Positions 13,480-27,751 of a stretch of DNA of 64,000 nucleotides are shown here, piece after piece. The stretch is from Prolixibacteraceae bacterium (lineage in GTDB: Bacteria; Bacteroidota; Bacteroidia; Bacteroidales; Prolixibacteraceae): NCBI GenBank assembly GCA_009773765.1, contig WTWZ01000022.1:72303-136302 (forward strand). Reading direction: 5' to 3'. The notes below the pieces were generated by a model. It did not search any database. It saw only the letters and a program-made list of their open reading frames with translations, and had not been told where the DNA came from. Position 1 is the stretch's first letter, and every line of letters begins with the position of its first letter. The position numbers and the translations under genes are program-made.

Positions 13480-14496
13480 ATGAAAAGCGGGCTAATTACC
13501 ATAAAAGATATTGCACGTGAGCTAAAAATTTCTCCGTCAACCGTTTCAAGGGCGCTAAAAAACCATCCTGACATTAGCAAGGAGACAAAAAAGGCGGTTA
13601 ACGAACTTGCTCAAAAGAGCAACTATCAGCCCAACGCTGTGGCTTTAAGCCTGAAACAACGAAGAAGCAACACCATTGGGGTAATTATCCCCGAAATTGT
13701 CCATTATTTTTTTTCATCCGTAATCAGCGGAATTGAGGATGTGGCTTACGATTCAGGGTTCAACGTAATTATTTGCCAATCAAACGAGATGTACGCCCGC
13801 GAAGTGGTAAACACCCGGACACTTCTGGCAAACCGTGTCGATGGAATTTTGGTTTCAATTTCAAAGGAAACTCAGAACTTTGATCACTTTTATAAGGTTC
13901 GCGAGAACGAAGTTCCTCTGGTTTTTTACGACAGGGTGGTTCCCGGGTTTGAGGCCGACCAGGTTATTGTTGATGATTTTGATGCGGCCTATCGCGCTAC
14001 ACGTCATTTAATTGAGGGGGGGCGCAAAAAAATCGCACATTTTTCGGGCCCTAAAAACCTGCTCATCAGTCAAAATCGAAAAGATGGTTATTTGAAAGCC
14101 ATGAACGAAGCACGTATCCAGGTAAAAAATGAATGGATTGTTGAAGCCGATAATTTTGAAAAAGCACGAATTGCAATCATCAATCTTTTGGAAGAAAAAA
14201 CCGAAATTGACGGTTTATTTGCAGTAAACGATCTCACGGCAGTTGGCGCAATGCAAACCCTTCAGAAACGGGGATTTAAAATACCAGGTGAAATTGCAAT
14301 TGTAGGTTTTTCCGATGGCCGTTTATCAGGAATTACCGACCCGGCGCTTACATCTGTCGATCAGCATGGTTACGAAATGGGAACCGTTGCCACGGAGTTA
14401 CTTTTAAAACGAATTTTAGCCAATAAATATGTTGCTCCTTTCGAAACCAAAATCCTGAATGCAAATCTCATCGTCAGGGGTTCGTCGGTAGTTTAG
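13480..14496 (+). CDS. LacI-family transcriptional regulator of the starch locus
   Basis: 338 residues. The N-terminal helix-turn-helix with hinge helix is plain: TIKDIARELKISPSTVSRAL (6-26) and AQKSNYQPNAVALSLKQRRS. It is followed by a periplasmic-binding-protein-like sensor domain (NTIGVIIPEIVHYFFS..., DGLFAVNDLTAVGAMQ, IVGFSDG). It lies between the susC operon and the transporter-phosphorylase operon, both of which have the palindrome it would be expected to bind. Classical Bacteroides sus is controlled by SusR, so LacI-type control is a local variant. It is probably the maltose/maltodextrin sensor. Repressor or activator mode is not decided by sequence. Confidence 0.9.
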   Translation: MKSGLITIKDIARELKISPSTVSRALKNHPDISKETKKAVNELAQKSNYQPNAVALSLKQRRSNTIGVIIPEIVHYFFSSVISGIEDVAYDSGFNVIICQSNEMYAREVVNTRTLLANRVDGILVSISKETQNFDHFYKVRENEVPLVFYDRVVPGFEADQVIVDDFDAAYRATRHLIEGGRKKIAHFSGPKNLLISQNRKDGYLKAMNEARIQVKNEWIVEADNFEKARIAIINLLEEKTEIDGLFAVNDLTAVGAMQTLQKRGFKIPGEIAIVGFSDGRLSGITDPALTSVDQHGYEMGTVATELLLKRILANKYVAPFETKILNANLIVRGSSVV

Positions 14497-14538
14497 ACTA
14501 TTCAATTTAAGCTATTCTTTAATAATATTTTAACTATT

Positions 14539-15981
14539 TTATTCGATTAAGATTTTCCAATATCCGCTTGTTCCACCAATTCGTTCAATTACACCCTTCT
14601 CTTTCAAAGCATTAAAATGTTTTTGCGCTGCACTGTAGTTTATTTTCATCTTTTCAGCTACATCCCTATATGCAATTCTATCATTATTTTTTATGAATTC
14701 AAGCACTTCTTTTTGGCGTTTAGTTAAATGAACTGCACCACCTTTTGCACCACCTTTTGCACCACCTTCTTCATCATCTGCTTCAGGTACATCATTATTA
14801 ATTCTCAAAGGAAATGTAACAATGGTAGTATCAATATGAATATCAAAAACTGGTTCGATTTCAATGTACGATTTCCAACCATTAATCATTTTATCGAAAC
14901 CAAAACCGGCATTTTCAGCTAATTTAACAGCTCTAAACGACTTTGCAAGAATTGGATTTCTTGGCATTGAAGCATCAATTTCAAGTAATTTTTTAAGCGA
15001 AACCGGCAGCCCGCCTGGATTATTGAATTCAATTCTATCGTCGAAAATTCGAATTCTTGGTTTTGCAGGACTAAAATAATCTGCATGCATCAGCATATTT
15101 ACCAATGCTTCACGAAGAGCTTCCAAATACGGAAAGTCCTCAATAGCAAATCCTTCTTCTCCCATTTTAAAAGGTAAATCAACTCTTTGTCTTATCCTGT
15201 CGAAAGCAGTAAAATAGTATTCCCACAAATTTTCCTGTTCTTCCATTCTGTAAGTATATCTTTTAGTTGAATCAGAATATGAAGTTCCTGGAATTTCAAG
15301 TAAATCGATTCTGAAATCGGGGAAGATTCGTTGAATCATTTCATTTCTCCCAAAAAACAATAATCCGGCAAAAGTCATTTTTCCATCCTCAACAATTTGC
15401 AATTTCGACAGGAGTTCATTCCTTGTCAGTTTGTTATATGAATGTGATGGATTGAATCTTGACATATAATCGCGATACCTTTCAACGGAGTGATTATTTA
15501 TTGAAGTATCGTCAAATTCTGGTATTGTTACCGAAGTTCTGGTTCCAAATGCCTGATCGCGGTACATGGCATCAACTTCCTCACGTGTTGCCCGCTGGTC
15601 GCCACTGGCTGTTCTTAAAAAAGTATTTAAAGGTGCACCAAAGTAGATTGGCTTTTTATTAGAAAGCGGAATATAAAAGGCCAGTACCGTCCCTTCATCA
15701 AAATCATACTTTTTACAAACAGGTCTTATTTTATCTTTGAATTTTTCACCCCGAAGAGTTGTTGTAAAGTCCTGCTCTGTTTTCTCCGGATTCTCTACAC
15801 CAACAATTTCAAATGATTTCCCTTTTAGTCTAATTCAAAAAATTAACCAACCTCCGGCTGTATTTGAAAATGCACTCACTGTTTCCCAGATATTTTTAGG
15901 AATTTTGGTGCTTGCCTCCTTAACTTCAAAATCTTCCCATTCAATATCTCCTAATCGCGCTATGAGTTGATCTTTTGTCAT
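14539..15981 (-). pseudogene. Schlafen/AlbA_2-type ATP-binding regulator broken by one stop
   Basis: Reading from ATG 15981, the frame MTKDQLIARLGDIEWEDFEV...SNTAGGWLIF meets TGA at 15835-15837. It then continues in the same frame (IRLKGKSFEIVGVE...) for 430 more codons to 14539. At the stop position relatives carry Gly (GGWLILGI type), so GGA to TGA explains it. Domains: AlbA_2/Schlafen N-terminal (~1-130), an ATP-binding HATPase_c_4-like region (YLEALREALVNMLMHADY, GFGFDKMINGW) and a C-terminal winged helix (LTKRQKEVLEFI...). An internal ATG at 15567 could still give the C-terminal 342 residues. It sits between the LacI gene and the transporter operon, and is unrelated to starch use. Confidence 0.85.
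14735..14770 (-). repeat. Three tandem 12-base units in the Schlafen-type gene
   Basis: GCACCACCTTTT occurs twice, followed by GCACCACCTTCT. On the coding strand it encodes repeated GGAK just before the winged helix. Copy-number change would keep the frame (4 residues per unit) and alter the linker length. Confidence 0.85.
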
Positions 15982-16111
15982 TGATAAAATCTGATTTTGA
16001 TAAATGTAGTAAGTAAAATTAAACGTTTTTTGGAAATTGTTGAAAAATGTGGAACCATTGATAATTTTAAATTCGAGCAGGAAAAAAAATTCAAAAAAAA
16101 TAAACCCCCTC

Positions 16112-16124
16112 TGCAAACGTTTGA
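16112..16124. promoter_or_regulatory. LacI-family operator upstream of the transporter operon
   Basis: TGCAAACGTTTGA contains the palindrome CAAACGTTTG, the same core as the operator at 12215-12230. It lies about 60 bases upstream of the -33 element of the transporter promoter, an upstream position more like an activator site than a classical roadblock. The rest of 15982-16308 shows no gene. Confidence 0.75.
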
Positions 16125-16180
16125 AATAACCTTTTCATTAAGAAAATGCTGGTTTTTAACAATTTGCTGAAGATCAAATA

Positions 16181-16213
16181 TTTGGGTTTATAAAAAATTC
16201 TGTTTTATATTTG
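16181..16213 (+). promoter_or_regulatory. Promoter of the transporter-GH65-GH13 operon
   Basis: A -33 TTTG (16181-16184) and a perfect Bacteroidota -7 element TATATTTG (16206-16213) are separated by 21 bases. Predicted transcription starts near 16219, leaving a leader of about 90 bases before the transporter start. Confidence 0.75.
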
Positions 16214-16308
16214 TCCTGGCAAATCAACATTATACTTCTGTTTAATCCGCAAAATCTTTGAAGCAGGGATTCGTTCCCGGCTAATTATCATTTTAAAATA
16301 CAGGTGTT

Positions 16309-17820
16309 ATGGTCAAAAAACCTATGCTAAGTTTCTGGCAAATCTGGAACATGAGTTTCGGATTTCTGGGTATTCAATTTGGTTTTGCATTGCAAAATGC
16401 CAATGTATCGCGAATTTTTCAGACACTTGGAGGCGATGTGGACCGGCTGGCAGTTTATTGGCTGGCTGCTCCGCTCACGGGATTAATCATTCAGCCCATA
16501 GTTGGTCATTACAGCGATAAAACCTGGGGAAGGCTTGGGCGCCGCCGCCCATATTTACTGGTAGGCGCTGTACTTGCCTCATTGGCGCTTTTATTTATGC
16601 CGAATTCCCCGACGTTGTGGATTGCTGTCGGAACACTATGGATTATGGATGCTTCAATCAACATTTCAATGGAACCATTTCGTGCTTTTGTAGGCGATAA
16701 CTTGCCTTCGGAACAACGAACCAGCGGATTTGCCATGCAGAGTTTCTTTATCGGAACAGGTGCAATTATAGCTTCATTTCTTCCTTATTCAATGACAAAC
16801 TGGTTTGGTATTGAAAACACCGCTCCCGATGGAATCATTCCTCCCTCTGTAAAATGGTCGTTTTACATTGGTGGAATAGTGTTTTTAGGGGCTGTTTTAT
16901 GGACTGTTTTCAGATCGAAAGAATATTCACCCGAAGAAATGAAAGCTTTTGAAACTGAAAAGATGAAAACCAATTCCTCGGTTGTTCTGAATTACCGGCC
17001 TGCATCCCAACTTCTAAATGTATTTCTGCGGAATGGAATCATTTTTTTAATTGTTGGTTTGGCGCTTGTCTGGTTTGTTTATTTCAAAGAGCTTGAAAAA
17101 GAGATGTACATTATGGGCGGCGGACTGGCAGTTTACGGGGTTATACAGTTTGTAACCTACCTTTTAACGAAAATCAAAAAAACTGAAAACGGGTTGGTCG
17201 AAATTATGACCGACATGATTAACATGCCAAAAACGATGGGACAAATGGCTTTGGTTCAGTTTTTTTCTTGGTTTGCGCTGTTTGCCATGTGGATTTATAC
17301 CACTGCGGCAGTAACGGGTCATGTTTACGGAACAAGCGACACAACTTCTGAATTGTATAACGAAGGCGCCGACTGGGTTGGGGTTTTGTTCGGAATTTAT
17401 AACGGATTTGCAGCAGCGGTTGCATTCGGTTTGCCCGTTTTGGCAAAATACACCAGCCGGAAAATTACACATTCTATTTCGCTGATTATTGGCGGACTGG
17501 GATTAATATCATTCTATTTTATAACCAACCCAAATCTGTTATTGGTTTCCATGGTGGCCGTCGGAATTGCGTGGGCAAGCATTTTATCGATGCCTTATGC
17601 CATTCTCACAGGATCATTGCCTGCAAACAAAATGGGAGTTTACATGGGGATCTTCAATTTTTTTATTGTGATTCCTCAAATTCTGGCGGCAAGCATTTTA
17701 GGGTTTATGATGCGCAGGTTTTTTGATGGCGATGCAATATGGGCGCTGGTGGCAGGTGGTATCTCCATGATAATTGCCGCGGCAACTGTAATTATTGTTG
17801 ACGATGTTGATCATCCCTGA
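16309..17820 (+). CDS. MFS maltodextrin/maltose transporter
   Basis: 503 residues, about 12 membrane segments, of the GPH/SLC45-like sugar carrier group. Signatures: PLTGLIIQPIVGHYSDKTW followed by GRRRPYLLVGA (the loop 2-3 motif, ~residues 45-85) and a second-half VGIAWASILSMPYAILTG. Homologues act next to susA/susB-type genes as inner-membrane malto-oligosaccharide carriers. First gene of a plus-strand operon, 21 bases before the GH65 gene, with its own promoter and LacI-type operator. Role: brings maltose or short maltodextrins from periplasm to cytoplasm. Confidence 0.9.
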   Translation: MVKKPMLSFWQIWNMSFGFLGIQFGFALQNANVSRIFQTLGGDVDRLAVYWLAAPLTGLIIQPIVGHYSDKTWGRLGRRRPYLLVGAVLASLALLFMPNSPTLWIAVGTLWIMDASINISMEPFRAFVGDNLPSEQRTSGFAMQSFFIGTGAIIASFLPYSMTNWFGIENTAPDGIIPPSVKWSFYIGGIVFLGAVLWTVFRSKEYSPEEMKAFETEKMKTNSSVVLNYRPASQLLNVFLRNGIIFLIVGLALVWFVYFKELEKEMYIMGGGLAVYGVIQFVTYLLTKIKKTENGLVEIMTDMINMPKTMGQMALVQFFSWFALFAMWIYTTAAVTGHVYGTSDTTSELYNEGADWVGVLFGIYNGFAAAVAFGLPVLAKYTSRKITHSISLIIGGLGLISFYFITNPNLLLVSMVAVGIAWASILSMPYAILTGSLPANKMGVYMGIFNFFIVIPQILAASILGFMMRRFFDGDAIWALVAGGISMIIAAATVIIVDDVDHP

Positions 17821-17841
17821 AAAAATGAAAGAAAAGTTAAA

Positions 17842-20151
17842 ATGAAAGATTACATTAAATATCACGAATGGCTGATAATTGAGGAAGGTTTTAATCCCGA
17901 AAATAACCGGATTTCGGAAAGTATTTTCAGTATCGGGAATGGAAAGATGGGGCAGCGGGCCAATTTCGAAGAAAAATATTCGGGCGATACGCTGCGTGGT
18001 TCGTATGTGGCAGGTATTTATTACCCCGACAAAACCCGGGTAGGCTGGTGGAAAAACGGTTACCCCGAATACTTTGCCAAAATCATCAATTCCACCAACT
18101 GGATTGGCATCAATATTACAATTAACGGCGAAGAACTGGATTTGGCAAATGCGAAAATTCACTCTTTTCAGCGGGTTCTCGATATGCAACATGGTTTGCT
18201 TACACGGTCCTTTATTGCTGAATTGAAAAACGGGAACCAGATAGAAGTAAATGCCCGCAGGTTTGTAAGTATTGACAATACTGCTGTTGGCGCCATTTGT
18301 TATACAGTAAAACCGCTTAATTTTTCAGGCGAAATCGTTGTTAAACCATATCTCAACGGCGATGTTTTTAACGAAGATTCCAACTACGATGAAAAATTCT
18401 GGGTTGAAATTTCAAAGGATATCAATGGTAGCGAGGGTGTTTTGATTACAGAAACTTTGAAAACAAAATTCCGCGTTGGCGCAGCAATGAATTTCAGGGT
18501 CCTGAAAAATGGCAATCCTGAAAGTGCCGAAATAATCACTTCTGCTGCCGAAAAATTTGTTCAGGCTGAACAAAATGTTTTGGTAAAATCAGGCGATGAA
18601 GTTTGTGTTGAGAAGTACGTTGCGGTTATTTCGTCGCTCGATTTTAAAGAGGGACTGTTGGCTGCAAAGGCGGTGGAAATTGCCAAACAGGCAAAGAACA
18701 GCGGGTTTGAGGTTCTGTTCGAAAACCACAAAAACCTTTGGCTTAAAAAGTGGGAAACCAGCGATATTAAAATTGAAGGCGATGTTGCCGCCCAGCAGGG
18801 AATCAGGTTTAACATTTTTCAGTTGAACCAAACCTATTCAGGCGAGGACGAACGATTGAATATTGGCCCCAAAGGATTTACCGGAGAGAAATATGGTGGG
18901 GTAACTTACTGGGATACAGAAGCTTATTGTTTACCTTTTTATTTAAGCACCGCTCCTGTCGAAGTTTCGAAAAAGCTGCTCATTTACCGGCACCGGCATT
19001 TGCAAAAAGCCATAGAAAACGCTCAAAAACTGGGCTTCAACGGCGGAGCTGCACTTTACCCGATGGTAACCATTAACGGTGAAGAGTGCCACAACGAGTG
19101 GGAAATAACATTCGAGGAAATCCACCGTAACGGCGCAATTGCTTATGCCATTTCCAACTATGTAAATTATACCGGCGACAGGGAATACCTCGCCCCGCAA
19201 GGGTTTGAAGTTCTGCTCGCAATCAGCCGTTTCTGGAGCCAGCGGGTAAACTGGTCGCAGAAAAAACTGAAATATGTTATGCTCGGTGTCACCGGGCCAA
19301 ACGAATACGAAAACAATGTAAACAATAATTTCCACACCAGCTACCTGGCAGTGTGGACTTTAAAATACACACTCGAAGTTGCTGGATATCTGCAAAAAGA
19401 ATTTCCGTATTTGTACGAGGAAATGATTTCTAAATGGAAGTTCAATGCCATCAAGGAAACTGAACGCTGGAAAGACATCATTAAAAATATGTATTTCCCA
19501 TTCGATGACGAACGGAATATTTACCTTCAGCAGGATGGATTCGACGATAAGGAATTAACCCCTGTATCTGAACTTCCTGAAAGCGAAAGGCCGATTAACC
19601 AGAAATGGTCGTGGGACAGGATTTTGCGTTCGTGTTATATTAAACAAGCCGACACTTTGCAGAGCATGTTTTGGTTCGAAAACGATTTTTCGGATGAAGA
19701 AATCAAGCGGCATTTCGATTTTTACGAACCGCTCACCGTGCATGAATCATCGCTTTCGCCATGCATTCATTCTATTTTGGCGACAAAAATTGGTTACGAA
19801 CAAAAGTCGTACGAAATGTATTTGCGTACTTCGCGTTTGGACCTCGACGATTACAACAACGACACCGAAGACGGGTTGCACATCACCAGTATGGGGGGTA
19901 CCTGGATGGCATTTGTGATGGGGTTTGGCGGAATGCGCGCCTGCGATAACAAATTAATCCTGAACCCGTTTTTGCCAAGTCAATGGAAATCATACCAGTT
20001 CAGGATCGATTTCAGGGGGGCACATTTAAGTTTTAAAAAAGAAAAGGAAATTCTGACAATCGTAAATTATTCGAAAGTGCCGGCAATGCTCGAACTATGG
20101 GGAAAACCTGTTCTTCTGAAAGAAAATTCCACAATTGAAATAAAAAAATAA
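17842..20151 (+). CDS. Glycoside hydrolase family 65, probable maltose phosphorylase
   Basis: 769 residues, no signal peptide, so cytoplasmic. N-terminal beta-sandwich (~1-270), then an (alpha/alpha)6 barrel. The general acid is in VTGPNEYENNVNNNF (Glu488), with phosphate-side and substrate motifs GVTYWDTEAY (~355) and later HESSLSPCIHSILA. The length fits GH65 phosphorylases. Likely reaction: phosphorolysis of maltose to beta-glucose-1-phosphate and glucose. Kojibiose or trehalose phosphorylase activity cannot be excluded by eye, but the neighbouring starch genes favour maltose. A beta-phosphoglucomutase, the usual partner, is not in the window. Confidence 0.9.
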   Translation: MKDYIKYHEWLIIEEGFNPENNRISESIFSIGNGKMGQRANFEEKYSGDTLRGSYVAGIYYPDKTRVGWWKNGYPEYFAKIINSTNWIGINITINGEELDLANAKIHSFQRVLDMQHGLLTRSFIAELKNGNQIEVNARRFVSIDNTAVGAICYTVKPLNFSGEIVVKPYLNGDVFNEDSNYDEKFWVEISKDINGSEGVLITETLKTKFRVGAAMNFRVLKNGNPESAEIITSAAEKFVQAEQNVLVKSGDEVCVEKYVAVISSLDFKEGLLAAKAVEIAKQAKNSGFEVLFENHKNLWLKKWETSDIKIEGDVAAQQGIRFNIFQLNQTYSGEDERLNIGPKGFTGEKYGGVTYWDTEAYCLPFYLSTAPVEVSKKLLIYRHRHLQKAIENAQKLGFNGGAALYPMVTINGEECHNEWEITFEEIHRNGAIAYAISNYVNYTGDREYLAPQGFEVLLAISRFWSQRVNWSQKKLKYVMLGVTGPNEYENNVNNNFHTSYLAVWTLKYTLEVAGYLQKEFPYLYEEMISKWKFNAIKETERWKDIIKNMYFPFDDERNIYLQQDGFDDKELTPVSELPESERPINQKWSWDRILRSCYIKQADTLQSMFWFENDFSDEEIKRHFDFYEPLTVHESSLSPCIHSILATKIGYEQKSYEMYLRTSRLDLDDYNNDTEDGLHITSMGGTWMAFVMGFGGMRACDNKLILNPFLPSQWKSYQFRIDFRGAHLSFKKEKEILTIVNYSKVPAMLELWGKPVLLKENSTIEIKK

Positions 20152-20155
20152 AAAA

Positions 20156-21994
20156 ATGAAGAAATTTTGGATTGCAGTAATTGCATTTATGTTCTCCCTC
20201 AATTCATTTTCCCAAAAACCTGAACGTGTTGAACCCATGTTCTGGTGGGCCGGTATGAAATCGCCCGGTTTACAGTTAATGATTTATGGCGAAAAAATTT
20301 CGGCTGCAGATGTATCACTAAAATATCAGGGCGTTGAACTTGTATCTGTAACCAAAGTTCAAAGCCCAAATTATCTGTTTATCGATTTAAAACTGGATGA
20401 AAATGTTAAGCCCGGAAAGTTCGATATTCAGTTTACATCCGGAAATAAAGTGGTTGCAACTTACCCTTACGAATTAAAAGCACGTGAAAATGGTTCGGCA
20501 AACCGGGCAGGTTTTAACAATTCAGATGTGATATACCTGATTACCCCCGATCGTTTTGTGAATGGTAACCCCAACAACGACTGGGTTGAAGGGATGCGCG
20601 AAAAACCCGACCGCAATAATAAAGATGGCAGGCATGGCGGCGATATCAGGGGGATCATCAATTCTCTCGACTACCTCCAAAAAATGGGATTTACTGCGGT
20701 GTGGCTCAACCCGGTGCTGGAAAACAACATGACGGAATTTTCATATCACGGGTACTCAGCCACAGATTTTTACAAGGTTGATCCCCGTTACGGAAGCAAT
20801 GAGGAATACCGTGAGTTGAACGATGAACTCGATAAAAGAGGGATGAAACTAATAATGGATATGATTTTCAATCACTGTGGTTCGGAACATTGGTGGATGG
20901 ATGATGTACCAATGGCCGACTGGATTAACAATCATCCCGATTATAAAATAACAACTCACCGCCGCACCGTAAACCAGGATCCACATGCCTCGGAAGCCGA
21001 CCGGAAAGCCATGGTTGACGGTTGGTTTGTACCTACTATGCCCGATTTGAACCAGCGTAATCCGTTCATGGAAAAATACCTGATCCAGAACAGTATATGG
21101 TGGATAGAATACGTGGGGCTCGAAGGAATCAGGCAGGATACCTGGCCTTACCCCGATAAAGATATGATGGCAACCTGGACAAAAGAGGTTTTGGCGGAAT
21201 ATCCCAATTTCAATATAGTTGGTGAGGAATGGGCTTTGAATCCAGCAATCGTTTCGTACTGGCAAAAGGGAAAAATAAACAGCGATGGATACGAATGCTT
21301 TTTGCCAGGGTTAATGGATTTCCCGCTGCAAAATGCGGCAAGCGAAGGATTAAGAAAAGAAGAAAGCTGGGCAGGTGGATTATTACAGATTTACGAATCG
21401 CTTGCCAACGATTTTCTATATTCCGATCCGGATAACCTGGTTATTTTCCCTGATAACCATGATATGTCGAGGTTTTATGTACAGGTTGGTGAAGATGTCG
21501 ATTTACTTAAAATGGGTTTGGCGTTCTTTTTAACCACGCGCGGAATACCTCAGATTTATTACGGTACGGAAGTTTTAATGCGGCACGATGGCGATGAACA
21601 TGGAAATATCCGTGCCGGTTTTCCTGGTGGCTGGCAGGGCGATAAAGTGAATGCCATAACCGGAGAGGGACTTTCAAAAGAACAAAAGGATTTGCAGGAT
21701 TACATTTCAAAAATTCAGAACTGGCGGAAAAGCAAACCTGTAATTCATAACGGGAAATTAATGCACTTTGTGCCCGAAGACGGAATTTACACTTATTTTC
21801 GCTTTAATGACAATGAAACGGTAATGATTGTGATAAATAAAAACAAACAAGCGAAAACTCTTGTAAACGAAAGGTTTAGCGAAATAATGGGTGGCTTTGC
21901 ATCAGGCAGGGAAATAATAAATTCTTATGAACTAACTGATATATCAGAGGTTCAGGTTCCAGCCAAATCAGCTATGATAATTGAGTTGAAGTAG
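20156..21994 (+). CDS. Periplasmic GH13 enzyme (SusA-like neopullulanase/cyclomaltodextrinase)
   Basis: 612 residues with a signal peptide (MKKFWIAVIAFMFSLNSFSQ). An N-terminal cyclomaltodextrinase-type beta domain (~21-115) precedes the GH13 barrel: DVIYLITPDRFVNGNP, the nucleophile in GIRQDTWPYP (about D328), acid/base in NIVGEEW (about E358) and FPDNHDMSRF (about D434). It ends in an all-beta domain C. The start is only 4 bases after the phosphorylase stop, so the two are translationally close. Role: trims imported malto-oligosaccharides in the periplasm before MFS uptake, as SusA does in Bacteroides. Confidence 0.92.
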   Translation: MKKFWIAVIAFMFSLNSFSQKPERVEPMFWWAGMKSPGLQLMIYGEKISAADVSLKYQGVELVSVTKVQSPNYLFIDLKLDENVKPGKFDIQFTSGNKVVATYPYELKARENGSANRAGFNNSDVIYLITPDRFVNGNPNNDWVEGMREKPDRNNKDGRHGGDIRGIINSLDYLQKMGFTAVWLNPVLENNMTEFSYHGYSATDFYKVDPRYGSNEEYRELNDELDKRGMKLIMDMIFNHCGSEHWWMDDVPMADWINNHPDYKITTHRRTVNQDPHASEADRKAMVDGWFVPTMPDLNQRNPFMEKYLIQNSIWWIEYVGLEGIRQDTWPYPDKDMMATWTKEVLAEYPNFNIVGEEWALNPAIVSYWQKGKINSDGYECFLPGLMDFPLQNAASEGLRKEESWAGGLLQIYESLANDFLYSDPDNLVIFPDNHDMSRFYVQVGEDVDLLKMGLAFFLTTRGIPQIYYGTEVLMRHDGDEHGNIRAGFPGGWQGDKVNAITGEGLSKEQKDLQDYISKIQNWRKSKPVIHNGKLMHFVPEDGIYTYFRFNDNETVMIVINKNKQAKTLVNERFSEIMGGFASGREIINSYELTDISEVQVPAKSAMIIELK

Positions 21995-22069: not shown

Positions 22070-22567
22070 TTATTCTGAAAGTTTTGACTGAAAATATAAA
22101 ATATAAAATACGACAATAATTAAAGTTACTATCCCAAAAAGAATCATAAACTTCTTTATTTGTTTATTTTGCTTTTCCAACAAAATTACTTTTCTGATTT
22201 TATGAACGCGATCAATTAACTTATCAAGGGTTACGTTGTCTTTTATAATATAGTCGTAAGCGCCAAATTTAATTGTATTTATCGCAACTTCAATATTATC
22301 ATGACTGGTGAGAAAAATAAACTGTGATTTTGGGCTTAGCTTTTTCATCTTAATCAAAACATCAATGCCGTTCATTTTTTCTAAAAAGTAATCCTGGATC
22401 ACTATATCTGGCAATTCTCCTCCTTCAACGGCCTTTAGGCACTCCTCTCCCGAAAAAAAGTATTTAACCTGGGTGAAATTTTGTTTTTTCAGGTGTTCTG
22501 TAATTAATTTGTTGTAAACTTTATTATCCTCAACAACAAATATAAGGTTGTTAATTTTTGCTGCCAT
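22070..22567 (-). CDS. Single-domain response regulator with C-terminal membrane helix
   Basis: 165 residues. Residues ~6-122 form a canonical receiver domain: acidic pair E13-D14, phospho-acceptor D59 in DIVIQDYFL, T87 in FLTSHD and K109 in YDYIIKDN. A basic amphipathic linker (residues ~123-139, RVHKIRKVILLEKQNKQIKK) leads into one hydrophobic segment, residues ~140-160 (FMILFGIVTLIIVVFYILYF), then a short tail. No DNA-binding or enzymatic output domain is present. Inference: a tail-anchored receiver, held at the inner membrane. No cognate kinase is adjacent. Transcribed alone. Confidence 0.85.
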   Translation of the reverse strand: MAAKINNLIFVVEDNKVYNKLITEHLKKQNFTQVKYFFSGEECLKAVEGGELPDIVIQDYFLEKMNGIDVLIKMKKLSPKSQFIFLTSHDNIEVAINTIKFGAYDYIIKDNVTLDKLIDRVHKIRKVILLEKQNKQIKKFMILFGIVTLIIVVFYILYFQSKLSE

Positions 22568-22748: not shown

Positions 22749-22776
22749 AAAAGGCTGGTTGTTGAACCGGCCTTTT
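22749..22776. terminator. Bidirectional hairpin after the TetR gene
   Basis: A 12-pair stem (AAAAGGCTGGTT with AACCGGCCTTTT, one G-U) around a 4-base loop. It starts 6 bases beyond the TetR stop on the minus strand, with T-runs on both sides. Confidence 0.8.
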
Positions 22777-22781
22777 GTTTT

Positions 22782-23384
22782 CTACCGCTTCATTATTCCG
22801 TAGCAAATAATTTTGAGAATAATATCCACACTGTTTTCAAGGTTAACATTACCATAAGTTCCTGCCGAAAGCGGCATTTCCAGCCCTTTTATGGCCATGG
22901 TAATTCCAATGGCGGCAAGGTTAAAATCGTAAATTTCAAATTCACTTTTTCGAACACCTTCTATCAAAATACGCTTAATCATGCGGATTTCGTCCTGTTC
23001 GTAACGGCGTTTAATGTCGTTTATAAAACCTACGGCTGTAACATCGTTTTCAATAGCATGGTAAAAATTGGCCAAACTCCTGAAAGTGGCCAGTTTAGTG
23101 AGGATGTAATCGCGCAGTTTGTCTATCGGATCGGTATTTCGGTTAATAACAATCTCCAGTTCGTGGGCTAAAATATCAACCTCCTTCATAATCACTGCCT
23201 GGAACAAATCCTCCTTGCTTTCGAAATAATAGTAAAGCGAACTTTTCCCTTTACGAACGGCATTGGCAATATCGTCGAGCGTGGTTTTTTTATATCCGTA
23301 TTTACTAAAAACATCGCGGGCAGTTTTTAAGATGTTTTCCCGGTTGAGGTCTTTTTTGTAACCGGTATCGTTTTTGGTTTGCAT
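22782..23384 (-). CDS. TetR/AcrR-family regulator
   Basis: 200 residues. The N-terminal helix-turn-helix is clear (ILKTARDVFSKYGYKKTTLD, then IANAVRKGKSSLYYYFESKEDLF, residues ~15-60). The C-terminal ligand/dimer domain is not assignable to a ligand by eye. The gene stands alone, 162 bases from rnr on the same strand and with its own terminator. Many Bacteroidota relatives control efflux or fatty-acid genes, but nothing here identifies its target. Confidence 0.88.
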   Translation of the reverse strand: MQTKNDTGYKKDLNRENILKTARDVFSKYGYKKTTLDDIANAVRKGKSSLYYYFESKEDLFQAVIMKEVDILAHELEIVINRNTDPIDKLRDYILTKLATFRSLANFYHAIENDVTAVGFINDIKRRYEQDEIRMIKRILIEGVRKSEFEIYDFNLAAIGITMAIKGLEMPLSAGTYGNVNLENSVDIILKIICYGIMKR

Positions 23385-23546
23385 GTTTTAAATTATTACT
23401 TCGTAAAAACAGGGCGTAAATATAACCATTTATTTTGCCTAAAAAATTATATTTGAACTTTTTACCTGTGCAGACGACAACAAAGGCCAAATCTCCAAAA
23501 CACCTTTCAATGCTTGAAAAATACGTTCCAGATATTCGAAAAATGA

Positions 23547-25709
23547 TTAATTTTCCTTGTTAGCAAGTTGAAAATCAAGTTGTTTTTTTTCTAAATTGGT
23601 ACGCCATATTTTTACGGTTATTTCGTCGCCCAACTGGTAAGTTTTGTGCGAATGACGGCCTGACAGCATATAATTTTTTTCATCAAAAATGTAAAAATCG
23701 TCATCGAGCTCCCGAATAGGGATCATTCCTTCAATTTTATTTTCAAGTTCAACAAAAACTCCAAAATCGGTTACTCCTGAAATAACGCCCGGATATATTT
23801 TCCCAATATGGTCCTGCATAAATTCAACCTGTTTGTATTTTACAGAAGCACGTTCGGCATTTGCAGCGCGGGTTTCCATGTCGGAGGAATGTTTGCATAA
23901 ATCTTCGGATTTCTGTTCATTTGCCGATCTGCCTCCGGTCAAATATTTTTCGAGCATCCGGTGTACCATCATATCCGGGTACCGGCGTATTGGGGAGGTG
24001 AAATGCGAATAATATTCAAACGATAAACCATAATGCCCGATATTCCGGGTTGAATAGGCTGCTTTTGCCATGGTTCTAATTGCCAGCGTTTCTACAAGGT
24101 TTTGCTCTTTTTTGCCCTTTACCTTATCCAGTAAATTGTTGAGCGATGTTGAAATTGCCTTTGGGGTTGTTAATTGGATGCCGTAACCAAAGCGGTGAAT
24201 AAAAGTATTGAGGTTAACCAGTTTGTCAGGGTCGGGTTTGTCGTGGATGCGGTAAACAAAGGTTTTTGGAGTTTTGTTTTCGCCCGTTTTTCCAACAAAT
24301 TCGGCAACTCGTTTATTGGCCAGCAACATAAATTCCTCAATCAGTTTATTTGAATCTCTGGCTTCTTTAAAATAAACCGAAAGTGGTTTTCCCCTGTCAT
24401 CAATTTCAAACTTAATTTCAACACGCTCGAAAGTGATTGAACCATTTTTGAAACGGATATCCCTCAATTTACCGGCGAGTTCATTTAAAATCAACATTTC
24501 AGATGAAAAACCGCCTTCCCCGGTTTCGATAATTTGTTGAGCTTCCTCGTAAGTAAAACGGCGGTCAGAGTGAATCACCGTTTTTCCAAACCATTCTTTT
24601 ACCAATTCTGCATCTTCGGTTAATTCAAAAATGGCAGAAAAGCAAAGTTTATCTTCGTTTGGCCTGAGCGAGCAAACCCCGTTTGAAAGCCGTTCAGGCA
24701 ACATGGGCACAACGCGGTCAACCAAATAAACTGAGGTTGCCCTGCTTTGGGCTTCGTCTTCAATTATCGAATTAGAGGTAACATAATGGGTTACATCGGC
24801 AATATGAACGCCAACTTCCCAATTCCCGTTTTTCAGTTTTTGTAACGAAAGTGCATCGTCGAAATCCTTGGCATCGGCCGGGTCAATTGTGAATGTGGTA
24901 ATGTCGCGTACATCTCTTCTTTTTTTGATTTCTTCCTCAGCGATTTCGAGCGGGATTTTCTCTGCCACCCTGTCCAAATTTTCCGGGAATTTGTAGGGCA
25001 ATTCAAACTCGGCAAGAATAGCGTGCATTTCGGTGTCGTTATTCCCGGCATCGCCCAGTACATCTTTAATTTCGCCAATCGGGCTGCGGGCATTAACCGG
25101 CCATTCAGTAATTTCGGCCACGGCTTTTTGTCCGTTTTTAGCGCCTTTTAATTTATCGATAGGGATAAAAATATCGAACCCTACTTTTCCTGCCGGTATC
25201 AGAAATGCAAAATTCCTCGAAATCTGAATGGTTCCCACAAAAACCGATTTGGCACGTTCCAGGATTTCCAGAATTTCTCCTTCCAAATCGTGTTTTTTAC
25301 GCGAAGCAAACAACCTCAAACGCACTTTATCCCCGGCCATTGCATGGTTCAGGTTGCGCGATGAAATGAGTATTGGTCTTTCAACTTCGTCGCTGTTAAC
25401 GTAGGCAAAACCCTGCGGTTGTAAATCAACAATTCCGATAACAGTGCCCGATTTAGCTTTTAATTTATATTTTCCACGGGCAATCTGGTCGAGGTAACCA
25501 TCATCATGCAGTTCCTGCAAAACCACGTTTACCAGCTTGCGTGTTTCCATGTTCTTTATCCCAAGCCAGGTCGATAATTGTTTGTAGTTCACTGTTTTGC
25601 CCGGGTCTCCGTAAAGGATGGCAACAATGGAGTTCTTCAGTTTCTTTTTGTTAAAAGTTTCTGGTTTGATGTTTTTAAAACCTCCTTTTTTTTTGTTCTT
25701 TTTCGACAT
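23547..25709 (-). CDS. rnr: Ribonuclease R
   Basis: 720 residues. An N-terminal helix-turn-helix-like domain and cold-shock/OB folds (~70-230) lead to the RNB exonuclease domain with the metal-binding signature TIDPADAKDFDDALSL (~265-282) and later HYGLSFEYYSHFTSPIRRYPD-type residues (~555). A C-terminal S1 domain follows (GVISGVTDFGVFVELENKIEGMI). A Lys-rich N-terminus (MSKKNKKKGGFKN) is typical. It degrades structured RNA 3' to 5' and takes part in RNA quality control. Divergent from the Ig-like lipoprotein gene. Confidence 0.96.
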   Translation of the reverse strand: MSKKNKKKGGFKNIKPETFNKKKLKNSIVAILYGDPGKTVNYKQLSTWLGIKNMETRKLVNVVLQELHDDGYLDQIARGKYKLKAKSGTVIGIVDLQPQGFAYVNSDEVERPILISSRNLNHAMAGDKVRLRLFASRKKHDLEGEILEILERAKSVFVGTIQISRNFAFLIPAGKVGFDIFIPIDKLKGAKNGQKAVAEITEWPVNARSPIGEIKDVLGDAGNNDTEMHAILAEFELPYKFPENLDRVAEKIPLEIAEEEIKKRRDVRDITTFTIDPADAKDFDDALSLQKLKNGNWEVGVHIADVTHYVTSNSIIEDEAQSRATSVYLVDRVVPMLPERLSNGVCSLRPNEDKLCFSAIFELTEDAELVKEWFGKTVIHSDRRFTYEEAQQIIETGEGGFSSEMLILNELAGKLRDIRFKNGSITFERVEIKFEIDDRGKPLSVYFKEARDSNKLIEEFMLLANKRVAEFVGKTGENKTPKTFVYRIHDKPDPDKLVNLNTFIHRFGYGIQLTTPKAISTSLNNLLDKVKGKKEQNLVETLAIRTMAKAAYSTRNIGHYGLSFEYYSHFTSPIRRYPDMMVHRMLEKYLTGGRSANEQKSEDLCKHSSDMETRAANAERASVKYKQVEFMQDHIGKIYPGVISGVTDFGVFVELENKIEGMIPIRELDDDFYIFDEKNYMLSGRHSHKTYQLGDEITVKIWRTNLEKKQLDFQLANKEN

Positions 25710-25785
25710 TTTTAGCGATTTAAAAGAGAGAACAAGTTAGCTTTTTATTTAACAACTCCTAACTTTCAATGTTTACAGGAATTTG

Positions 25786-25793
25786 TATGTTTG
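25786..25793 (+). promoter_or_regulatory. -7 element of the Ig-like lipoprotein gene
   Basis: TATGTTTG fits TAnnTTTG and lies 17 bases before the start codon. No clear TTTG is seen at -33. Confidence 0.55.
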
Positions 25794-25810
25794 TAGTCCG
25801 TTAAAAAAGC

Positions 25811-27751
25811 ATGAAGTTTAAAGGCAAAATACCGGTTTTAATAGTTGCGGCGCTGGCCTGGATTGTAATTATTTCGTCGTGCGCAAACCCAGGAATGCCG
25901 GTTGGCGGCCCACAGGATACAATCCCTCCTGTGTTGGTTAAAACCGAGCCGGCGTATAAATCGGTTAAGTTTAAAGGTAAAGATGTAAAACTTACTTTTA
26001 ACGAATACATAACAACCGAAGCCATTTCGGAAGCCCTTGTAATTTCGCCCCCGATGATTAAAAAACCCATTATCCGCACAAAATCAAAAACTCTGATTAT
26101 CGAATTTAATGAAGAGCTAATTGACAGCTCAACCTATTCGCTCGATTTTAAAAATTCTGTTGCTGATAATAATGAAAAAAACGAACTCGGGAATTTCCGG
26201 TTTTCGTTTAGCACCGGCGATGTTTTCGATTCGTTGCGTGTTTCGGGCAGGCTGATGGATGCTTTTAACCTTGAACCTGTTGACAAGGGGCTGGTTTTAT
26301 TGCATAACAATTTGCACGATTCGGCAATTTACAGGGTGCGGCCAAATTATATTGCCAGAACTGATAAGGAAGGTATTTTTATGATTGACAATATTTCACC
26401 CGGAAAATACCACCTGTTTTCGCTGAATGACGTTAATAATAATTTATTTTACGATGAAGGGGCAGAAGAAATTGCGTTTGAAGATTCGCTAATAATCCCG
26501 TCATCAGAATATATTGAGGAAGTTGATACCATTTTTACTGCCACTGATACGATTGTTGTACTTGGGCACACGCATTTTTATCCGGAACCCATTTATTTGC
26601 AACAGTTTACCGAAGATATTTTTGACCAGTTCCTCGATTCGCATACCAGGGATACCCGTTACAAATGCACTTTTGTATTTAATGAATCCGTCAGGGATTC
26701 ATTCGAACTGAATTTGATTAACAGCGGTGCTAAAAACTGGTACCAGGTTGAATATAATGAAAATGTTGATTCGCTGATTATTTGGATTGCCGATACAACA
26801 ATTGCCCGGCAGGACACATTGCTGATGGAAATCTGTTATCTGCAGTTGGATTCTTTAAATCAGCTTTATTTACAAAGAGATACCCTTTCTATGAATTTTA
26901 CAGATAAAGTGGACGACATATCGAAGAGAAAGAAAAAAACGGATGGCCAGGGAGAAACGCCGGAACCTGCGGTGCAGTTTACCCTGCAACCCGATATCAG
27001 CAGCTCGGTTGTTGAACTGAATAAAAGTGTTGGGCTTAATTTTCCAGAGCCAATTTTTGAGTACGACAGTACCAAAATTGTTCTTTTTTTAACGGATGAT
27101 ACACTGAAAAGGCCGTTGAATTTTAAATTTGAAAAAGATACACTCCAATATCGAAAGTATAACATTAAATATCGGTGGGAACCTGAAGAAAAATATACAC
27201 TTCAGGTTGATTCAACCGCATTCTCCAATATTTTTGGAATTACCAGCCGAAAGTTAACTTTAAGGTTTTCAGCCCGCGAGGAAGATTTTTATGGAACGGT
27301 TTTATTAAACTTAACTGGTATTGAAATGCCGATCATGGTTCAGCTTGTAACCAATTCTGCCGATGAAAAGGTGGTTGTTCAAAAATCAGTTAGCGAAAAC
27401 GGAAAGGTCTTGTTCGATTACTTAAAGCCCGATAAATACAAAGTTAAAATGATTTACGACCGCAACGGGAATGGGAAATGGGACACCGGAAGTTTTCAGG
27501 ATAAGGTTCAACCTGAAATGGTTACATACATTAACAATGTGCTGAAAGTAAGATCGAACTGGGAAATAGAAATGCCGTATGATTTGGCCCCAAATAAATC
27601 GTTTGTCAAAAAAATCCGCGATATCGAGGAGGAGGAAAAACAACGAAAAGAGGCCGAAGAAAAGGCACGGAAGGAATTGGAACAGGAAAGAAGCCCGGAG
27701 CAAATGCAAAACTTTTTACAAGGTTCCGGCGGTTCAGGCATAATGAGATAA
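25811..27751 (+). CDS. Ig-like (Big_5) domain lipoprotein
   Basis: 646 residues. The lipoprotein signal has lipobox IISSC (Cys24) followed by ANPGMPVGGPQDTIPP, the standard opening of a Bacteroidota family with an N-terminal Big_5 Ig-like domain (~38-140, KDVKLTFNEYI). A carboxypeptidase-regulatory-like segment is around 160-220 (GIFMIDNISPGKYHLFSLND). Two further beta regions follow. The C-terminus is a charged coiled coil (EEEEKQRKEAEEKARKELEQ, ~605-630). Function unknown; probably envelope-associated. Followed by two small conserved genes on the same strand that may form a loose operon. Confidence 0.75.
   Translation: MKFKGKIPVLIVAALAWIVIISSCANPGMPVGGPQDTIPPVLVKTEPAYKSVKFKGKDVKLTFNEYITTEAISEALVISPPMIKKPIIRTKSKTLIIEFNEELIDSSTYSLDFKNSVADNNEKNELGNFRFSFSTGDVFDSLRVSGRLMDAFNLEPVDKGLVLLHNNLHDSAIYRVRPNYIARTDKEGIFMIDNISPGKYHLFSLNDVNNNLFYDEGAEEIAFEDSLIIPSSEYIEEVDTIFTATDTIVVLGHTHFYPEPIYLQQFTEDIFDQFLDSHTRDTRYKCTFVFNESVRDSFELNLINSGAKNWYQVEYNENVDSLIIWIADTTIARQDTLLMEICYLQLDSLNQLYLQRDTLSMNFTDKVDDISKRKKKTDGQGETPEPAVQFTLQPDISSSVVELNKSVGLNFPEPIFEYDSTKIVLFLTDDTLKRPLNFKFEKDTLQYRKYNIKYRWEPEEKYTLQVDSTAFSNIFGITSRKLTLRFSAREEDFYGTVLLNLTGIEMPIMVQLVTNSADEKVVVQKSVSENGKVLFDYLKPDKYKVKMIYDRNGNGKWDTGSFQDKVQPEMVTYINNVLKVRSNWEIEMPYDLAPNKSFVKKIRDIEEEEKQRKEAEEKARKELEQERSPEQMQNFLQGSGGSGIMR

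Follow-up and report, generated by a model that had tools for sequence, protein, structure and literature searches.

What can a receiver domain switch when all that follows it is a hydrophobic helix? This question is raised by a gene in the 64,000-nucleotide stretch of Prolixibacteraceae DNA analyzed here, which we call the window. Textbook accounts mostly present response regulators as soluble switches that act on DNA. The gene (22070-22567, minus strand) is a complete open reading frame with an ATG start and encodes 165 amino acids. PF00072 (Response_reg) matches residues 9-121 with an E-value of 5.6e-20 and 72 bits against a cut-off of 30.2, covering positions 1-110 of the 111 in the profile. 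The active-site set of receivers comprises an acidic pair, a phospho-acceptor aspartate, a threonine or serine and a lysine, and E13, D14, D59, T87 and K109 are all present; a whole-domain match above the Pfam cut-off and the full active-site set both place the protein in this family. No second domain was found in the Pfam scan, and the remainder of the chain is one helix in an AlphaFold2 model. The initial annotation had described a full receiver, a basic linker, a single hydrophobic helix and no output domain, and sequence, charge, hydropathy and Pfam agree with this description (Table 1).

Table 1. Features of the anchored receiver gene and its upstream flank (positions in the window).
Feature	Position	Strand	Basis
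Receiver gene with C-terminal membrane helix, family A	22070..22567	-	ORF list, Pfam PF00072, family A orthologues
Receiver domain, residues 9-121	22205..22543	-	Pfam, conservation, AlphaFold2 receiver elements
Continuous helix, residues 113-164: alpha5, basic linker and membrane helix	22076..22231	-	AlphaFold2 model
Predicted membrane-spanning segment, residues 140-158	22094..22150	-	Hydropathy, conserved hydrophobicity, charge bias
Short C-terminal tail FQSKLSE, residues 159-165, predicted periplasmic	22073..22093	-	Sequence, charge bias
Terminator-like palindrome between upstream TetR-type gene and receiver gene	22749..22776	.	2 overlapping sites, 0.4 expected

The AlphaFold2 model, built from an alignment of the window protein and 16 proteins from named relatives, has a mean pLDDT of 89, a pTM of 0.77 and the usual receiver elements. 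Residues 113-164 form a single unbroken helix in this model, from alpha5 through the linker into the membrane segment. Among solved structures, the sigma54 activator receivers NtrC1, NtrX and DctD come closest. NtrC1 matches best in sequence, DctD ranks lower among others, and the matched region goes beyond alpha5, ending at residue 136-137; in fold, NtrX and NtrC1 lead. In NtrC1 and DctD, alpha5 runs into a helical coiled-coil linker and pairing changes with phosphorylation. While NtrC1, NtrX and DctD continue to an AAA+ and a DNA-binding domain, the linker of the window protein enters the membrane helix directly.

The AAA+ sigma54 and DNA-binding domains of NtrC-type regulators are absent from the window protein, as is, according to Pfam, the DNA-binding domain that would mark a membrane-bound transcription regulator of the ToxR/CadC type. 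CheY, Spo0F and DivK are soluble single-domain regulators without a membrane helix. The window protein resembles them in being a receiver alone, with a complete active site and no output domain, but its predicted membrane helix sets it apart from these soluble proteins and makes it a variant of the single-domain response regulator rather than a plain member. By prediction it has the layout of a C-tail-anchored protein, with a single helix at residues 140-158 of 165, a short tail and a cytoplasmic bulk. The 25 NCBIfam matches listed for each of four proteins were receiver matches, far under the cut-offs.

Residues 140-158 (FMILFGIVTLIIVVFYILY) contain no charged residue and have a Kyte-Doolittle value of 2.79. 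For comparison, two soluble lone receivers from the same order, L030 and L032, reach 0.79 and 0.81, and those of the wza-profile survey described below score at most 0.72. A simple insertion-energy sum has its minimum of -4.0 at the helix, against +12.8 for the best 19-mer in residues 1-130. The segment has a hydrophobic moment of 0.16 on the scale used here. Three receiver helices have values of 0.39-0.53, and residues 113-139 a value of 0.13.

Relatives retain this helix. All 22 family A and family B proteins of the first 33 loci, the window's included, have a hydrophobic C-terminal helix. A scan of named genomes confirmed at least 510 relatives, of which the best 80 were retained, ranked by match to the full-length protein, a ranking that favors helix-bearing relatives. 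The helix is present in all 79 complete loci of these best 80 (lowest score 2.16), the remaining locus being cut at a contig end. The initial annotation had named an amphipathic helix, or homologues all without one, as what would speak against an anchor; the low moment, the 19 uncharged residues and the counts of 22/22 and 79/79 show neither to be the case. Composition, moment, charge bias and conservation rule out an amphipathic or soluble helix, and a chance frame extension is likewise ruled out by the tail in 79 of 79.

We also examined 137 distinct anchored receivers, selected by a hydropathy cut-off of 1.9, so that their own hydropathy is no evidence while their charge bias and sequence drift are. 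The most hydrophobic 19-mer of these proteins carries 0.04 charged residues on average. Net charge averages +4.3 over the 20 residues before the helix and -0.15 after it, and exceeds the charge after the helix in 136 of the 137, a bias that fits a receiver on the cytoplasmic side. Pairwise comparison of the 74 members nearest to the window protein gives a mean identity of 59% for the receiver, 35% for the linker and 29% for the helix; since the helix is retained while its letters drift, hydrophobicity is the selected property. Anchoring of the receiver to the inner membrane through its C-terminal helix is well supported by prediction and conservation. A different anchored design was noticed in L031, where a 435-residue open frame on the minus strand combines a Lys/Glu/Pro-rich N-terminal part, a receiver and a hydrophobic helix.

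Orthologues of the window protein (family A) were identified in 17 of the 25 genomes of the genus, the window's own included, and a paralogue (family B) in 19; at least one of the two is present in 21, a contig-end fragment in G001 being left uncounted. The window's genome carries both, with family B on contig C33 (G000:C33:140385-140867; L050:8380-8868). This family B copy has a glutamate in place of D14 of the acidic pair, and its phosphorylation is likely weaker or altered. Titles of 55 of the best 80 of at least 510 relatives name Prolixibacteraceae or the genera Mariniphaga, Tangfeifania, Maribellus, Draconibacterium, Sunxiuqinia, Prolixibacter and Puteibacter, with best-segment identities of 64% for M. 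sediminis and 63% for T. diversioriginum. The remaining titles of these 80 are mostly unplaced Bacteroidota, plus one metagenome-assembled genome each labelled Flavobacteriales, Cytophagales, Chitinophagales, Chitinophaga, Marinilabiliales and Chlorobiota. Draconibacterium orientale, a named type strain, has both paralogues (L089, L131).

Is the anchored form a single lineage? A quick receiver tree of 156 rows and 122 columns was computed from 228 distinct domains, after removal of receivers cut by a locus end and of near copies above 78% identity. The window's clade, consisting of family A, family B and some rows of other bacterial families, is anchored in 51 of 51 rows and has an SH-aLRT support of 93, the level for starring a branch being 95. 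Outside this clade, anchored receivers intermingle with short soluble ones, near NtrC-type receivers. A single clade of all anchored receivers (82 anchored rows versus 74) was rejected with a p-AU of 0.0005. At least 12 anchor changes are needed on the quick tree, 3 of them forced by starred branches, and many forks are unresolved. As anchored receivers do not form one clade, anchoring arose or was lost repeatedly, and the tree cannot tell which.

Upstream of the window gene are a TetR-type regulator (22782-23384, PF00440) and a gene that looks RNase R-like (23547-25709), and a cyclomaltodextrinase-type gene faces it from downstream. The palindrome upstream of the receiver gene hints at a separate transcription unit; it was scored on the plus strand, and its use on the minus strand would be a further assumption from the sequence. 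In-house profiles detected neither a kinase nor an HPt within three genes, which makes this receiver gene an orphan by neighborhood.

Several features of the flanks were recorded in passing. A block of TetR, RNase R-like and ~650-residue protein genes (window 22782-27751) flanks family A here, and the same block flanks the other side of family B in Mariniphaga and Tangfeifania (L140, L146, L147, L149). The region 13480-21994 looks like a maltodextrin-use cluster with a LacI-type regulator, an MFS transporter, a glycoside hydrolase/phosphorylase-like protein and the cyclomaltodextrinase, the last being the sole member scanned with Pfam. Two minus-strand frames of 93 and 342 amino acids at 14539-16116 resemble, by eye, pieces of an ATP-binding, DNA-binding-type protein and are perhaps one broken gene.

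Some more distant anchored receivers have other neighbors. In L145 (Chitinophagales) an NtrC-type regulator is followed by H-NOX (PF07700, E 5e-52) and then by a hybrid kinase with HPt. Next come the anchored receiver, a wza-type export protein (PF02563, E 1.3e-16), a Wzc-like chain-length protein and a MatE-like gene, whose weak match is slightly under the Pfam cut-off. Taken on its own, L145:298-10209 is a possible nitric-oxide to exopolysaccharide pathway. The anchored receiver is also directly followed by wza in L141 (Cytophagales) and L224, and in L210 this position, behind FIST and hybrid kinase genes, is taken by a short soluble receiver. We then searched 395 genomes of the phylum, which yielded 30 loci, and scanned these loci with an in-house wza profile. 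They include one more anchored receiver followed by wza (L263, with a helix score of only 1.99) and six cases of a soluble receiver followed by wza (L260, L261, L262, L264, L265, L270), L262 and L264 being the same places as L210 and L225. Altogether the place before wza is taken in ten loci, by an anchored receiver in four distant loci and by a soluble one in six, which indicates that the two kinds stand in for each other there. The wza-linked anchored proteins fall outside the window's clade, and no wza was found in the flanks of family A or B in any locus of at least 7 kb, so that a tie of these families to polysaccharide genes found no support in those flanks.

Transporter genes are a second recurrent neighbor. 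Of the 126 anchored receivers, 44 have an MFS or POT gene no more than 2.6 kb away. In 25 of these (family B and kin) it is on the same strand at a distance of up to 1.3 kb, in 10 it shares the strand but comes after an S41-peptidase-type gene, and in 9 it is on the opposite strand. Pfam MFS_1, PTR2 and Peptidase_S41 were confirmed for the scanned examples. This linkage is mostly in one bacterial family, and shared gene order may explain much of it. The initial suggestion of a place near a transporter draws neighborhood support from these 44, mostly of one family, but none from the window's own copy, which has no MFS or POT neighbor within 2.6 kb.

To judge a link to phosphorelay genes, kinases and free HPt proteins were counted with in-house profiles in loci of at least 7 kb, leaving out shorter loci and receivers cut by a locus end. 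A kinase is found within three genes of 36 of the 126 anchored receivers (29%) and a free HPt of 7, while the corresponding numbers for 22 short soluble relatives are 18 and 4. As kinases make up 31 of 865 further-off genes, about 20% of six-neighbor sets should contain one by chance. The window's set comprises 93 receivers (genus and best-80 loci, less L139, L141, L144 and L145, plus L238 and L239). Here a kinase occurs within three genes in 19, which is the chance level, and a kinase or HPt is next door in one. Fifteen of these 19 are family B of one genus, with one kinase three genes away on the opposite strand. This HisKA kinase sits in a coaX-dxs block (names assigned by eye) on the opposite strand and was not counted as a family B partner. 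Outside the window's set a kinase is found within three genes in 17 of 33, where ~20% would be expected, and a kinase or HPt next door in 11 of 33, although many of these regions were chosen for clustered matches and partly hand-picked, so that neither figure is a fair sample. A kinase or HPt adjoins 17 of the 22 soluble short receivers. Kinase linkage as a general rule for anchored receivers is not supported by these counts, with 36/126 against ~20% and the window's set at chance; the link is real in particular distant loci and absent for the window's group as a whole.

An anchored receiver occurs together with a free HPt in four distant loci from four bacterial families, with Pfam E-values for the HPt of 2e-7 (L217), 2.5e-7 (L220), 5.8e-10 (L222) and 1.8e-7 (L240). 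The kinase is a hybrid with HisKA, HATPase_c and a receiver (Pfam) in L217, L220 and L240, and a piece detected by an in-house profile in L222; L218, without a Pfam scan, resembles this layout. In L214 and L215 the anchored receiver adjoins a kinase with TPR repeats, HisKA, HATPase_c and a receiver, and that of L215 ends in an HPt. Within one branch of the window's clade, receivers in L129, L153/L229 and L156/L230 adjoin receiver-carrying kinases, and a fourth row (L152/L227) does not. The relay loci L217, L220 and L240 also lie near genes for ice-binding-like domains (PF11999); of three such genes scanned, two match a type 9 secretion tail, one of them below the Pfam cut-off.

HPt was matched twice in the window's genome: once in an orphan gene on C85, and once in a hybrid kinase on C51 that has an NtrC-type gene as its neighbor. 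Of the 25 genomes of the genus, 23 contain a close match to the orphan protein, with a best E of 3e-21 or lower, which makes this HPt the obvious candidate donor for anchored receivers. HPt and anchored receiver do not form a strict pair, as the HPt is present in G015 (70% complete) and G018 (93%), where neither family A nor family B was found. The annotation had proposed that phosphorylation might be relayed or sensed at the membrane face, for instance by capturing a kinase. The conserved active site and the distant relatives beside hybrid kinases and HPt proteins speak indirectly for the first part; in the window's set kinases are at chance level (19/93). For the capture of a kinase the analysis gave no sign. 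The second paralogue, the repeated gain or loss of the anchor and the exopolysaccharide export genes beside some distant relatives were not anticipated in that annotation.

From the active site, the helix and their conservation, all of which were computed, and from the kinase and HPt genes that lie beside distant relatives, we infer that the window protein, as a tail-anchored single-domain response regulator, receives phosphoryl groups from a His-Asp relay and acts through contact with a membrane protein. We hold this reading with about as much doubt as confidence, the comparison of kinase neighbors with chance having lowered the latter. Membrane insertion, phosphorylation, the donor, a dimer switch and the partner would each have a part in it. 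The last helix would keep the receiver on the cytoplasmic side of the inner membrane. A hybrid histidine kinase would pass phosphoryl to an HPt and from there to D59 of the anchored receiver, a path that is likely for the window protein by analogy with the linked distant loci. Phosphorylation of D59 would shift the alpha4-beta5-alpha5 face, and this shift could alter either the pairing of the receiver with itself or its contact with a neighboring membrane protein, for example one of polysaccharide export or transport. Such changes are conceivable because alpha5, linker and membrane helix are one uninterrupted helix. Any altered pairing would be handed on to the membrane segment or partner, where NtrC1 or DctD would have AAA+. 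If the protein acts by membrane contact, its output would be post-translational, at the membrane and not on DNA.

Another possibility is that the protein is a membrane-placed phosphate sink, draining phosphoryl groups from HPt proteins or membrane hybrid kinases and thereby starving other receivers, with no partner of its own. A protein that has no output domain and a conserved active site would suit this role. So would the linked kinases of distant relatives, which have predicted membrane helices in L214, L215, L217, L218, L220 and L240, and the tandem arrangement of anchored and soluble receivers at one HPt in L217 and L218. The place before wza in ten loci is better suited to an effector, and the loss of D59 in some members to a contact protein, though both are compatible with a sink in the case of the window's copy. 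We consider a sink unlikely.

The active site itself bears on whether phosphate is needed at all. In the 137 distinct anchored receivers D59 is conserved in 132, D14 in 129, and T/S at 87 and K109 in all. D59 is replaced in 5/137, by serine in L136 (6001-6489) and L138 and by asparagine in L143, L150 and L151; judging from these substitutions, the five are membrane-anchored pseudo-receivers. Together with the glutamate at D14 in family B of the window's genome, these losses indicate that phosphorylation is not needed in all members, and part of the anchored class may work without phosphate. The same substitutions would fit a phosphorylation-independent contact protein in which the receiver fold serves as a membrane docking platform. 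For the window protein this is improbable, as its 74 closest members retain D59 and K109 in 74/74 and D14 in 73/74.

In the window's genome only the paralogue is closer to the window protein than two NtrC-type receivers, which share 39% and 35% identity with it, and NtrC-type genes accompany short receivers, anchored or soluble, in L139, L145, L207-L210, L224 and L225. The anchored receiver could on these grounds be a trap that keeps sigma54 activators at the membrane by pairing with their receivers. Mixed pairing left no direct sign, however, and a shared kinase accounts for the linkage equally well, which makes a trap quite improbable. That the helix is buried in another protein or oligomer is very improbable, for although the membrane reading is a prediction from simple scales, 19 uncharged residues, low moment, charge bias and letter drift all argue for an anchor.

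The anchored regulator acting by membrane contact has a partial precedent. EpsW of Myxococcus xanthus is a single-domain response regulator that, according to the available text of its report, switches the membrane enzyme EpsZ (PMC12802240). EpsW is likewise a lone receiver and acts post-translationally on a membrane-embedded polysaccharide enzyme (PMC12802240, available text), and some anchored relatives of the window family directly precede polysaccharide export genes. The differences are that no membrane helix is described for EpsW in the available part of that paper (PMC12802240), and that the window's copy has no polysaccharide gene alongside. The term 'Bacteroid' is absent from the available text of PMC12802240, and we use EpsW as a working analogy for the window protein and not as a claim of membership.

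In two other systems relay components are termed membrane-anchored or predicted to span membranes. The Methanoregula MetOD3-REC-MetOD2 regulators contain a receiver and a domain termed membrane-anchored; they differ, in the excerpt available, in that the anchored domain of 180 residues precedes the receiver and another domain follows it, and they number four archaeal proteins (PMC5847659). Predicted transmembrane phosphotransfer proteins of plants resemble the window protein as a usually soluble relay component with predicted membrane helices, and differ in being phosphotransfer proteins, not receivers (PMC12785465). Receivers with a single C-terminal membrane helix were not described in the literature that we searched, which was mostly without subscription papers, and an earlier mention is possible. 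Lone receivers as such are already known; a conserved class of them with a C-terminal membrane anchor is apparently undescribed in that literature.

We tentatively suggest a wider reading, doubtful as a whole, in which Bacteroidota repeatedly anchored receivers as the membrane arm of branched phosphorelays and the window's family represents shared outputs of the orphan HPt. In such a relay a hybrid kinase and HPt would feed both a sigma54 activator, for transcription, and an anchored receiver, which would directly switch envelope machinery, for example that of exopolysaccharide export or MFS transport. Some loci would add nitric-oxide sensor-like H-NOX or FIST proteins, and the anchored receivers of the window's family would now be free-standing.

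An anchored class that is conserved, repeatedly gained or lost, and extended by nothing but a helix into the membrane would show that relays can end at the membrane by design. It would also assign a testable place of action to receivers and HPt proteins of Bacteroidota that are orphans. Our findings suggest that the end point of some phosphate-relay signals is the membrane and not DNA.
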